64,000 nucleotides of DNA, taken from contig NZ_CALPDB010000002.1 in the NCBI RefSeq assembly GCF_943193155.1, positions 248,001-312,000 of the forward strand. The letters are read 5' to 3'. The position numbers and the translations under genes are program-made. The notes under the pieces were generated by a model, which worked only from the letters and a program-made list of their open reading frames with translations, had not been told where the DNA came from and did no database searches. Every line of letters begins with the position of its first letter. Positions within the stretch are counted from its first letter, which is position 1. The stretch is from Veillonella intestinalis (GTDB lineage: Bacteria; Bacillota; Negativicutes; Veillonellales; Veillonellaceae). Positions 34,145 to 55,282 of this stretch are shown here, piece after piece.

Positions 34145-36802
34145 CTATAAGGTCTTAAGAAATTCTTCGCGTTCCATTACAGCTTGCTGTTTTTGTTTAT
34201 ATTCAGCTAATTTAGCTTCTTCTTTGGCTACTACATCAGCAGGCGCTTTGGCTACGAAACCAGGATTGCCTAATTTGCCTTCTAAACGAGCAATTTCCTT
34301 TTTCAAGGTTTCTTTTTCTTTCGTTAAACGTTCACGTTCTTTCGTTACATCAATTAAATCTTTAAGTAACAAGTATACTTCAAGACCATTAACAACTGTA
34401 ACAGTGGCATTTTCAGGTTTTGCCTCATCAGCGCCTAATACAGTGACTGTTTCAGCCCAACCAAGGGTTTTAAAGTAATCTTGGTGATGATTTACTACAT
34501 CCCGTAAACTTTCATCAGTAAGCGCTAAAATTACGGCACTACGTTTACCCATTGGCACATTCATTTCAGCACGCATATTACGAATCCCTTTAATAGCATC
34601 CATCATAACGTTCATCTGCGCCGCGCTAGTACTTTGGTCTCCAAATGGTAAAGCACTTGGCCATGGAGCTACTACAATGCTTTCACCTTCATGTGGTAAG
34701 TGCTGCCAAATATGCTCAGTAACGAATGGCATAAATGGATGTAACAATTCAAGCATATGACGTAAAATCGTAACCAATAAGTATTGTACTACGGCACGGT
34801 CACGGCCGCCTTCTTTATTGTAAAGACGAGGTTTTGCCAATTCGATGAACCAGTCACAATAGCTATTCCAAATAAAATCATATACAGCAGAAGCCGCTTC
34901 ACCTAATTCAAATTTATCAAGGTTAGCTGTAATAGATGCTACCGCTTTATTATAGGTATCAATAATCCAACGATCGGCTAAAGTCAAGTCTTCTTCTTGT
35001 GGCACAAAGTTAGGATCATAATTATCTAAATTCATAAGAACAAATTTAGACGCGTTCCAAATCTTATTAGCGAAGTTGCGATTGGCTTCTACTCGTTCCA
35101 TATAGAAACGCATATCATTGCCTGGCGTATTACCCGTTACCAAGGTGAAACGCAACGCATCAGCACCGTATTCATTAATTACATCTAATGGATTGATACC
35201 ATTGCCCAAAGATTTACTCATTTTACGCCCTTGGCTATCACGCACTAGACCATGAATAAATACATGTTTAAATGGAATTTCTTTTTTAAATTCAAGGCCC
35301 ATAAAAATCATACGAGCTACCCAGAAGAAGATAATATCGTAACCAGTTACTAATACGCTAGTTGGATACCAATGTTCCAATTCCTTAGTTTCTTCAGGCC
35401 AGCCCATAGTAGCAAATGGCCACATAGCGGAACTAAACCAAGTATCCAATACATCTTCATCTTGATGTACATGGCCACCACATTTAGGACATACATCAAT
35501 ATCTTCACGAGATACAGTGATTTCACCACAATCGTCACAATACCAAGCAGGAATGCGATGACCCCACCATAATTGACGAGAAATACACCAATCACGAATA
35601 CCATCAAGCCAGTTTGTATATGTCTTAGTAAAACGTTCTGGGACGAATTCAATGTTTTTATCTTGTACTACTTTAAGTGCTGGTTCTGCAATTGGTCCCA
35701 TTTTTACAAACCATTGTTTAGACACTAATGGCTCTACAATGGTATTACAACGGGAACAATGACCTACGCTATGATCATGTTCTTCAATCTTAGTTAATAA
35801 ACCTAACTCTTTTAATTCTGCCACCACTTGCTTACGAGCTGCTTCTCGAGTTAAGCCTTCAAAATGACCAGCTTCACTGTTCATAGTGCCGTCAAGGTTC
35901 ATAACAATAATCGTCTGTAAATCATGACGTTGACCCATTTCAAAGTCATTAGGATCATGAGCTGGCGTAATTTTTACACAGCCCGTACCAAAGCTAGGAT
36001 CTACATAATCATCAGCAATAACTGGAATTTCACGATTAACAAATGGCAATAATAAAGTTTTGCCAATAATATCTTTGTAACGATCATCTTCTGGATTAAC
36101 AGCCACTGCCACGTCACCAAACATGGTTTCAGGACGAGTAGTTGCTACAGTTACATAACGGCCTTCTTCGCCTACTACTGGGCAGTTTACATACCAGAAA
36201 TGACCAGCTTCATCACTGTGTTCTACTTCAATATCGCTAAGCGCTGTATGACAACTTGGACACCAATTGGTAATGCGTTCCCCTTGGTAGATTAAGCCTT
36301 TTTCATATAAACTTACAAATACTTCACGAACCGCACGATAATAGCCTTCGTCTAAGGTAAAGCGCTCACGACTCCAGTCGCAGGATGCGCCTAAGCTACG
36401 AATTTGTTTAACGATGGTGCTACCATATTCTTTTTTCCAATCCCATACGCGTTTTACAAATTCTTCACGGCCTAAGTCATAACGACTTTTGCCTTCTTCT
36501 TTCATAAGGTTCTGTTCTACTTTTACTTGAGTAGCAATCCCTGCATGGTCAGTACCAGGCATCCAAAGTACATTGTAACCTTGCATGCGTTTGAAGCGAA
36601 TCAAAATATCTTGCAAGGTATTATCAAGAGCATGACCCATGTGTAATTGCCCCGTTACATTAGGTGGTGGCAATACAATACTATAAGGCTTTTTACTTGT
36701 ATCTACTTCTTCATGAAAGTACCCTTGTTTTTCCCAGAATTCATACCAATTGTGTTCAATCTCTCCAGGATTGTAAGTCGTTAAATTTTTGAACTCACTC
36801 AT
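34145..36802 (-). CDS. valS: Valyl-tRNA synthetase
   Basis: 885 residues, full length. Class I signatures are HMGHALDNT at 54-62 and KMSKS near residue 530. An editing domain (CP1) lies between, with zinc-binding cysteines in [26 protein letters not shown]-terminal coiled coil (about 815-880, [22 protein letters not shown]) binds tRNA. The start has AGGAGG upstream. Expression is controlled by a T-box leader. Confidence 0.97.
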
Positions 36803-36825: not shown

Positions 36826-37130
36826 ATAAAAAAGCCCTCTCGTCCATTAGGACGAAAGGGCTTAACTTCCGCGGTACCACCTAGATTATTGCCATAGCAA
36901 TCACTCATTACCGTTAACGGGGTTATCCGGACAAAACTACCCATTACTAAGTATATAATCAACTAGCTTCTCCACAGAGATACTTGCTATATGCTCAATA
37001 ACTTCATCTCGTCAGCTCCAAGGCTACCCTCTTCTATTCACGTACGTTGCTCGCACCTTACCAACGCTCTCTGCTACGCTAGGAGAAGATTTTTCCTCAT
37101 CAACGCTTGCTCTTTATAAGAGTATATCTA
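36826..37130 (-). promoter_or_regulatory. Valine T-box riboswitch leader of valS
   Basis: The minus strand carries the canonical T-box AGGTGGTACCGCGG (36869-36882), the AGAGAGCGTT and GGTGCGAGC stem I motifs (about 37040-37075), and a terminator hairpin with AAGCCC/GGGCTT arms and a T-run (36826-36863). A GTA triplet at 37025-37027, directly before GCCTTGGAGC, sits where the specifier codon is expected and reads valine. Uncharged tRNA-Val would favour the antiterminator. Confidence 0.93.
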
Positions 37131-50630: not shown

Positions 50631-50750
50631 AAGGTTCGTCTCTCTTCTCTTTTATAAATTTACATGTAATCATATGTAGGAGTCTTACTATAAACTCCTT
50701 AAATTACAATTAAATGAATCAACTAAAATTATATATAGATTAACTTATAC

Positions 50751-50831
50751 GCTTTATACGCTTTATACGCTTTATGCGCTTTATGCGCTTTATGTGCTTT
50801 ATACACTTTATGCTCTTTATGCGCTTTAATA
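50751..50831. repeat. 9-bp tandem repeat, nine copies
   Basis: Units GCTTTATAC, GCTTTATGC and close variants follow one another without gaps every nine bases from 50751. They fill the middle of the 220-base gap between larE and the RuBisCO-like gene. The period equals three codons but the array lies outside both genes. Confidence 0.9.
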
Positions 50832-50853: not shown

Positions 50854-51990
50854 TTAACTATGTTTTTCCGCAAGGTCTACAAATACCTTCATATTTGCCG
50901 CTAAATCAGGACCACGGCGGAACATGTCACCACCGACTAAGAACATCGTATCATTGCCATATAAATCAAGCAATTCAGGCAAGCGAAGTTCTGTAACGCC
51001 ACCACCAGGCGACGGGCACGTTGCCTTAATCCCCTCTATCGGCTTAGTGCAATATTGATGAATACGTTTACACTGGTCAGCCGTAAAGGTAAAACGGCCA
51101 CCATAAGACACAAAGATGGACATATCAGCACCAAATAACCGAGGTAACAAGCCCATCCATAAATAATCAGCAATACCAGATACACCAGGCAAAGCAAAAC
51201 CACCCATCATAGCAGGATGAGATATAATAGGTAAACCTAAGCCTTCTTCGTTAGCTAATCGATTAAGCCAGCCATAGCCAACTAATGCAGGGGCTACCAT
51301 AAGAGCCGTAGCACCAGCTTCTTTGGCAAAATATGCTCTAGCCAGTAAATCTTCGCCATCAGCTGATACATTGGCAGCATATAAAGTATGATGACCAGTC
51401 TGTGCATTAGCTTCTGCCACCGCTTCAGCACAGCGTTTTACCCGTTCTTCAAAGGGACAAAACGTTTGATTTGTTATGCCATGATCATCCTTAATTACAT
51501 CCGCCCCACCTAATACATAAGCACGACACATATCTGCCAAAACTGACGGCGATGTTCCCATGGGCTTAATAACCGCTTGAATAAAGGCCCTCTTAGCAGT
51601 CCCAGTAAGTTGCCGCAAACCGTCTAAGCCAAAACGTGGCCCTTTAAATGCGCTAACTAGGGCTGGTGATATTTCAATATCAATTACCCAAATGTGCGGT
51701 TGTAAGGAAGAATTGCCAAACACAACATTTAAAAATTGCGTAGCCTCTAAAGCAGTACATTCTACACCATAAGAAATTCGAGCTATAAAATGGCGCTCAT
51801 CACCAGCTGATTCTAAGGACTCTAAACGACCTACAATATCTCGTTTAATATCCTCATTCTGTAAAAAATCATAAGGAAACTCAATCGTCTGTTCTACTTG
51901 CACGCCCCAAGCAATAGCTTTTGCCTCTTCATAGGTAAGGGCTTCTATTTGATAGGTCACTACGAACCGTTCATTGCATAAGTTCTTCAT
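50854..51990 (-). CDS. RuBisCO-like protein (form IV)
   Basis: 378 residues, shorter than RuBisCO large chain but collinear with it. Counterparts of active-site residues are K142 (IKPMG; RuBisCO K175), K167 and D169 in GGADVIKDDHG (K201, D203), H170 replacing metal ligand E204, H258 in SHPA, and phosphate-binding PSPGGG and FLVGGDMF near the end. The loop-6 GKxEG motif is absent, so carboxylation is not expected. The KDDH pattern differs from the KDDE of MtnW enolase and matches isomerase/decarboxylase-type RLPs. Its substrate is unknown. Confidence 0.88.
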   Translation of the reverse strand: MKNLCNERFVVTYQIEALTYEEAKAIAWGVQVEQTIEFPYDFLQNEDIKRDIVGRLESLESAGDERHFIARISYGVECTALEATQFLNVVFGNSSLQPHIWVIDIEISPALVSAFKGPRFGLDGLRQLTGTAKRAFIQAVIKPMGTSPSVLADMCRAYVLGGADVIKDDHGITNQTFCPFEERVKRCAEAVAEANAQTGHHTLYAANVSADGEDLLARAYFAKEAGATALMVAPALVGYGWLNRLANEEGLGLPIISHPAMMGGFALPGVSGIADYLWMGLLPRLFGADMSIFVSYGGRFTFTADQCKRIHQYCTKPIEGIKATCPSPGGGVTELRLPELLDLYGNDTMFLVGGDMFRRGPDLAANMKVFVDLAEKHS

Positions 51991-52061
51991 CAGTGCCTCC
52001 TTTTAAATACATCTCTAATTCTTTATTTTACTATAAAATGAATATTAATTGTACAACTTAA

Positions 52062-53946: not shown

Positions 53947-54516
53947 CTAGCATGCCGTTACGGCTACTAAAGACTCTAATTGTTTACCATTTAAAAGCTG
54001 GGTATGACAGTAATTTCTGCATGCCCGAAAACAGTGAAACGAATGCATGGCGGACATAGGGTTGCCATAGACTTTCCATTCACCACAAAGTTTATAGCCA
54101 CTCCCTTTCAAACGAATAAAGGAGCGCACATCATGGATTGGATAGCCCAAAAACAGACCTATTTCATGAGGAAAATCTTGTCGTTCTTCTAAACGTCGTT
54201 TTAAACGAGCAAACCATACATCTAAAGACTCTGTTGGCATATAGCCATACATCTTTAAAAAGCCTACGTGCTCTGGTCGCCGTAAATATTCCTCTAACAT
54301 CCGTTTGCGAAACACTAACAACAATCTTCGTTGGTCGCAGTGACATAATTCATAAAAGAACAAGCCACGATCATTAAACATTTCATTATACGCCGACAAA
54401 GCCGTTGTCAAATGTATATCCTTATCTCGTGGAATAGCCACAAGATTCGCCACCTTGATGCCCCGTATTGCCGGCGCACAATGATAACCGATAATAGTAT
54501 CTATCTCGCTTACCAT
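53947..54516 (-). CDS. DUF3793 family protein
   Basis: 189 residues, soluble. Recognised by LLVFRKRMLEEYLRRPEHVGFLKMYGY, FPHEIGLFLGYPIHDVRSFI and the WKVYGNP...CFRACRNYC segments, the last giving closely spaced cysteines (SFHCFRACRNYC). The family, of unknown function, is found mainly in anaerobic Firmicutes next to flavodoxin genes. Here the pair is preceded by a Fur-like box, pointing to iron limitation. Confidence 0.85.
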   Translation of the reverse strand: MVSEIDTIIGYHCAPAIRGIKVANLVAIPRDKDIHLTTALSAYNEMFNDRGLFFYELCHCDQRRLLLVFRKRMLEEYLRRPEHVGFLKMYGYMPTESLDVWFARLKRRLEERQDFPHEIGLFLGYPIHDVRSFIRLKGSGYKLCGEWKVYGNPMSAMHSFHCFRACRNYCHTQLLNGKQLESLVAVTAC

Positions 54517-54904: not shown

Positions 54905-55282
54905 CTACTTTAATTTTCCCATAAATTTTTCGTTATTGATAACAAAACGCTCATGTGTTCCCTGACCAATACAAGCCTCACCTTCATAGGCTGACACACG
55001 ATAGGAAATCTTTCGCCCCTCAACAGCTGTTATTTCTGCTTCAGCCCGAATAGTAGCGCCTACAGGAGATGGCTTATCATGGGTAATATTCAAGGAAATC
55101 CCTACCGTACCTTCACCGTCTGCCAAGTAATTAGTCAAAGCAGCTACCGCCGCTTCTTCCATTAGAGCGCACATAGCAGGTGTAGCAAACACCGGCAAAG
55201 CACCACTTTTCATAGTTTTAGCTATATTTGCCTCTGTTACCATTACAACTGCTTCACCGCGCAAGCCAACTTGAATACTCAT
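54905..55282 (-). CDS. Thioesterase family protein (FlK-like hotdog fold)
   Basis: 125 residues. The pattern TMKSGALPVFATPAMCALMEEAAVAAL, TVGISLNITHDKPSPVGATIRAEAEITAVEGRKISYRVSAYE, IGQGTHERFVI (three separate segments) matches the fluoroacetyl-CoA-thioesterase-like hotdog family. The Thr, Glu and His residues of the FlK site have counterparts (FATPAM, EEAA, NITHDKP). The natural acyl-CoA substrate is unknown. A single gene flanked by its own terminator. Confidence 0.87.
   Translation of the reverse strand: MSIQVGLRGEAVVMVTEANIAKTMKSGALPVFATPAMCALMEEAAVAALTNYLADGEGTVGISLNITHDKPSPVGATIRAEAEITAVEGRKISYRVSAYEGEACIGQGTHERFVINNEKFMGKLK

Follow-up and report, generated by a model that had tools for sequence, protein, structure and literature searches.

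A RuBisCO-like protein of Veillonella with a Lys-Asp-Asp-His metal site, predicted to act as a 5-methylthioribulose-1-phosphate isomerase

What reaction might be catalyzed by a RuBisCO-like protein (RLP) whose metal site reads Lys-Asp-Asp-His (KDDH) and whose neighbors point to no pathway? The preliminary description of the 64,000-nucleotide stretch of Veillonella intestinalis DNA analyzed here (the window) had left the reaction of such a protein open. We have approached it through sequence and structure comparisons, a tree, and the gene content of related genomes. The gene is an exact open reading frame on the minus strand, and its features are the following:

50854..51990, minus strand: coding sequence of the KDDH RuBisCO-like protein, 378 aa, a predicted Deep-Ykr-type 5-methylthioribulose-1-phosphate (MTRu-1P) 1,3-isomerase
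51996..52002, minus strand: AAGGAGG, a likely ribosome-binding site read from the sequence, 5 bases upstream of the start codon
51712..51714, minus strand: codon of N93, the position of Lys in MtnW enolases, from the alignment
51481..51492, minus strand: codons of K167-D168-D169-H170, the metal-site motif, computed from the reading frame, His standing where RuBisCO has E204
51091..51102, minus strand: codons of G297-G298-R299-F300, the loop-6 region replacing GKxEG, with R299 and F300 invariant in the clade

The RLP gene was found in 28 of the 28 genomes of the family, in one copy each, and hence is not a chance reading frame. Its closest named relatives were from Veillonella species, with 65-90% identity. 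In the class, 69 of 380 genomes contained a match (E < 1e-10), a few of these being KDDE-type proteins of about 30-34% identity. The copy in one genome of the Veillonella family (G008; L026 1501-2670) carried an in-frame TAG, reflecting either a pseudogene or an assembly error.

The Pfam RuBisCO_large model matched the protein with 101 bits (cut-off 30.1), and the AlphaFold model (pLDDT 89.4, pTM 0.88) matched RuBisCO and RLP structures over its full length. The best match was 3qfw from Rhodopseudomonas palustris (Z 47.2, 1.7 Å over 348 residues), followed by MtnW structures (Z about 45) and then by RuBisCOs. The modeled fold confirmed the RLP superfamily, but the lead of 3qfw was modest, and thus the subfamily was decided by sequence, residues and tree. 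When compared to the sequences of solved structures, the RLP again matched 3qfw best (255 bits, 38.5% identity), with the MtnW structures reaching at most 145 bits. None of the NCBIfam models matched at its cut-off (PRK09549, 200 bits vs. 409; MtnW, 159 vs. 513.6; form III RuBisCO, 119 vs. 497; OiaX, 83.6 vs. 700), and the RuBisCO model PRK04208 gave 119.8 bits vs. a cut-off of 438.

The RuBisCO-fold residues listed in the preliminary description (K142, K167, D169, H258, PSPGGG and VGGD) were all present in the reading frame, together with D168 and H170. As it had also stated, His (H170) occupies the position of spinach E204 and GKxEG is absent, loop 6 reading YGGRF. These residues exclude carboxylase activity, and the protein is a form IV RLP; RuBisCO forms I-III were rejected, as H170 and GRF are found instead of KDDE and the GKxEG catalytic Lys. 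In an alignment of RLPs taken from Negativicutes genomes, plasmid records and PDB chains, 67 of the 68 clade members, 3qfw included, had His at the E204 position, and 10/10 RLPs from outside the clade had Glu. R299 and F300 of loop 6 were found in 68/68 clade members, and Asn93 in all 67 with a residue at that position. The three MtnW sequences all had Lys there, the residue that serves as the general base in MtnW. KDDH and GRF were common to the Veillonella RLP, 3qfw and a Terrarubrum RLP with a cupin gene next door. Rather than the orphan signature it had been taken for, the KDDH site marks the clade of the Deep-Ykr MTRu-1P isomerases.

The tree (midpoint rooting, several long branches) placed the RLP with 3qfw in a KDDH clade of 54 rows, set apart with 100/100 support and separate from MtnW, OiaX and other KDDE proteins (100/100). 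The Deep-Ykr reference in this tree was 3qfw. Since R. palustris RLP2 corresponds to a separate entry, 2qyg, we infer by exclusion, at the species level, that 3qfw is R. palustris RLP1. This Deep-Ykr enzyme converts MTRu-1P to 1-methylthioxylulose-5-phosphate and 1-methylthioribulose-5-phosphate in a 3:1 ratio, with an isomerase kcat of 1.3 per s; its gene-deletion phenotype has been published, and it is needed for part of the methanethiol formed from 5'-methylthioadenosine (MTA) (PMC5893883). The Veillonella RLP resembles R. palustris RLP1 and Rru_A1998, the Deep-Ykr MTRu-1P 1,3-isomerase of Rhodospirillum rubrum, (compared via 3qfw) in KDDH, the GRF loop 6, Asn93 and a similar length, and in a genome equipped with MtnP, MtnA and a methylsulfurylase-type cupin. 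It differs in its identity to 3qfw, in not being encoded beside the cupin and in belonging to a Negativicutes branch. In the tree, this branch lay closer to the rhizobial RLPs linked to a split transketolase than to 3qfw (95/90). Because of this proximity and of the 38.5% identity, the substrate preference of the Negativicutes RLPs could have shifted from that of 3qfw.

The neighbors of the RLP gene in the window were as first described: larE lies downstream, and upstream is a divergent gene for a class I/II aminotransferase. In Veillonella, the RLP gene lies among housekeeping genes (larE, MBL-fold hydrolase, HtrA and RlmH, with the divergent aminotransferase), neighbors that say little about its function. 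We considered larE as a functional partner and rejected it; it is near the RLP gene in several families, yet not constantly, and in the Veillonella genera g3 and most of the sampled g4 the RLP was kept with larE not adjacent. The Lar cofactor system accounts better for the presence of larE; LarC was present in G000 and not found in G002 and G012. A search for RNA elements, SAM riboswitches included, found none at the RLP gene. Between it and larE, positions 50745-50828 contain a nine-base tandem repeat, TTATGCGCT (9.3 copies, 89% matches). Just past the aminotransferase gene, the minus strand of the window encodes a DUF3793 protein (53947-54516, 173 bits) and a fluoroacetyl-CoA-thioesterase-like FlK hotdog protein (54905-55282, 123 bits). 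A T-box leader (36845-37112, minus strand, 108 bits vs. a gathering threshold of 93) lies upstream of an 885-aa reading frame (34145-36802).

The comparison of neighborhoods across Negativicutes was more informative in the deeper relatives, where the RLP gene is directly followed by the cupin gene, an O-acetylhomoserine sulfhydrylase gene and a nitrogenase-like pair (methylthio-alkane reductase genes). The NifD-like protein (MarD) of L044 matched 9FMG, the MarDK methylthio-alkane reductase, with 945 bits, indicating that the entire locus concerns methylthio compounds. Sporomusa-like RLP loci with nitrogenase-like genes were L044 2020-11892, L045, L052, L046 3201-14386, L047 and L081 1176-15166. 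The cupin, a galactitol-type PTS and genes of the O-acetylhomoserine sulfhydrylase type were also present in several of these loci. MarD was not found in the genome of the window.

The preliminary description saw no methionine-salvage gene, and indeed none was found in the RLP neighborhood examined, because the pathway genes are on other contigs of the same genome. Contig C1 carries one gene cluster encoding MtnP (309 bits, cut-off 274.9), MtnA (433 bits, cut-off 279), the adenosylhomocysteinase AhcY (604 bits, cut-off 497.6) and an amidohydrolase resembling MTA/SAH/5'-deoxyadenosine deaminases, for which all matching models scored below their cut-offs. It also carries DXR (468 bits, cut-off 315.7). 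Contig C5 encodes spermidine synthase SpeE (337 bits, cut-off 249.6) and a cupin with 156 bits to 3kgz and 140 bits to 3jzv, which is R. rubrum Rru_A2000, named MTXu-5P sulfurylase (PMC4958253). An O-acetylhomoserine sulfhydrylase (625 bits, cut-off 495.1) was found on contig C3 and a PRK12315-type DXS (815.6 bits, cut-off 510) on contig C4. Thus, the MTA-isoprenoid shunt partners MtnP, MtnA, methylsulfurylase-type cupin and O-acetylhomoserine sulfhydrylase are all in the genome, with the RLP (contig C2), the cupin and mtnPA on three contigs. The cupin and RLP genes are not adjacent, unlike those of R. palustris, an arrangement that is unnecessary for function.

We have then compared the distribution of the RLP and the cupin (match at E < 1e-35) in 79 Negativicutes genomes. 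The cupin was found in 45 of the 49 genomes with a KDDH RLP and in none of the 30 without it (Fisher p 8e-18, although the genomes are kin and the independent events far fewer). The four RLP genomes in which this search found no cupin were G351, G332, G341 and G343, the last three having a split transketolase immediately before the RLP. MtnA was not exclusive to RLP genomes, being also found in most RLP-less Megasphaera-like genomes.

From the gene presence, clade membership, conserved active site and cupin co-occurrence observed, we infer the reaction of the Veillonella RLP and the flow of metabolites around it. The protein very probably converts MTRu-1P to 1-methylthioxylulose-5-phosphate in an oxygen-independent MTA-isoprenoid shunt. 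Spermidine synthase would produce MTA, and the deaminase and/or MtnP, then MtnA, would transform it into MTRu-1P. At the metal/enediolate site (KDDH), the RLP would move the carbonyl via a 1,3-proton shift, generating 1-methylthioxylulose-5-phosphate, which the cupin would cleave into methanethiol and 1-deoxyxylulose-5-phosphate (DXP). The O-acetylhomoserine sulfhydrylase would return methanethiol to methionine, and DXP would be able to enter the MEP pathway, DXR being present. Points that count against this reading are the distance to 3qfw, the spread of RLP, cupin and mtnPA over three contigs, the RLP genomes in which no cupin was detected and the lack of an RNA element at the gene. No assayed Veillonella protein of this kind was found in our literature search. 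At least 25 species, including Dialister and Veillonella, have been reported to carry RLP, cupin, MtnP and MtnA homologues (PMC5893883, 2018). The shunt has been discussed as a possible DXS substitute (PMC10663253).

The earlier interpretation was therefore partly supported. Its conclusion that the reaction is open does not hold, since the protein clusters with a characterized isomerase clade and the salvage pathway is encoded elsewhere in the genome, a combination that it had itself named as refuting; of its guess of an isomerase or a sugar-acid decarboxylase, the first half agrees with the data and the second does not, given the OiaX score.

The split transketolase points to a variant of the locus. 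Plasmids of Shinella, Rhizobium, Agrobacterium, Pararhizobium and Mariluticola share the order mtnK-mtnA-transketolase N-transketolase C-RLP, the RLP being in one operon with MtnA, the maker of MTRu-1P. This rhizobial RLP belongs to the KDDH clade (41% identity) and is directly mtnA-linked, but a split transketolase/DXS-like pair takes the place of the cupin. The pair stands directly before the KDDH RLP, often overlapping by at least one base, at L126 4698-10122, L127 4686-10110, L128 4690-10110, L138 4698-10122 and L139 4688-10119, and further at L130 2745-9131, L129 6025-9128, L048, L049, L050 and L054. In this apparent variant, the RLP product would pass to a thiamine-diphosphate enzyme. 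Our literature search found no report on the function of the rhizobial transketolase-linked RLP, and no paper linking RubisCO-like proteins, transketolase and methylthioribose, so the variant seems undescribed in the literature covered. It is conceivable, if rather unlikely, that the KDDH RLPs of anaerobes use both MTRu-1P and 5-deoxyribulose-1-phosphate, the latter, derived from the 5'-deoxyadenosine of radical SAM enzymes, giving DXP in one step, with the split transketolase taking the RLP product in cupin-less relatives. If true, one RLP would serve several salvage routes.

We regard it as distinctly improbable that 5-deoxyribulose-1-phosphate is the main natural substrate. It would derive from 5'-deoxyadenosine, a radical SAM by-product, and be converted directly, without the cupin, to DXP, a starting compound for isoprenoids, thiamine and PLP. 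On chemical grounds the same carbonyl shift on a 5-deoxy sugar would yield DXP, and the cluster of the DadD-like deaminase (below cut-offs), MtnP and MtnA could feed the reaction; however, a methanethiol-removing cupin accompanies the RLP in 45/49 genomes, spermidine synthase is present, so MTA is made, and the literature search found no paper on the reaction. Several RLP-bearing relatives have DXR without full-length DXS, but DXS is also absent from RLP-less relatives, and the genome of the window has a DXS-like gene. DXS loss was hence rejected as proof that a shunt supplies DXP, since Megasphaera-like g9 genomes have DXR and lack full-length DXS, RLP and cupin. In this search, in which some genomes were checked by the PRK12315 model only, DXR and RLP without full-length DXS were found in G002-G007, G014, G021, G349, G351, G352, G354-G357 and G376-G379, nearly all of them also with the cupin. 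G359, G360, G362, G363 and G372 had DXR and neither full-length DXS, RLP nor cupin, and must therefore draw on some other source of DXP. PRK12315-type DXS without DXR was seen in G367 and G373.

There is very little to favor a role in oxygen-dependent methionine salvage as an MtnW-type 2,3-diketo-5-methylthiopentyl-1-phosphate enolase. MtnW and the Veillonella RLP have the fold, about 30% identity and a sulfur-salvage context in common, but the preliminary description was right to separate them. MtnW has KDDE, Lys where the RLP has Asn93, and YGS in loop 6; it lies in another clade, the MtnW and PRK09549 scores are below cut-off, and a pathway with an O2-requiring dioxygenase is implausible for a strict anaerobe. 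An OiaX-like decarboxylase or transcarboxylase acting on a sugar-acid phosphate is equally hard to credit, for although OiaX (3-oxo-isoapionate-4-phosphate decarboxylase) is also an RLP and its model matches weakly, an annotated OiaX shares 23% identity, has KDDE, falls in another clade and adjoins a four-carbon acid sugar kinase, a gene that was not seen at the Veillonella RLP.

The MTRu-1P isomerase reading places the Veillonella RLP in a known family, and earlier work had already predicted it for this genus. What the present analysis adds is the KDDH/GRF signature, the joint occurrence of RLP and cupin, the position of all pathway genes in this genome and the transketolase variant. Veillonella KDDH RLPs can be annotated as MTRu-1P isomerases instead of "RuBisCO" or "unknown," and Veillonella, a frequent inhabitant of the human mouth and gut, is predicted to recycle MTA without oxygen, with methanethiol made en route.
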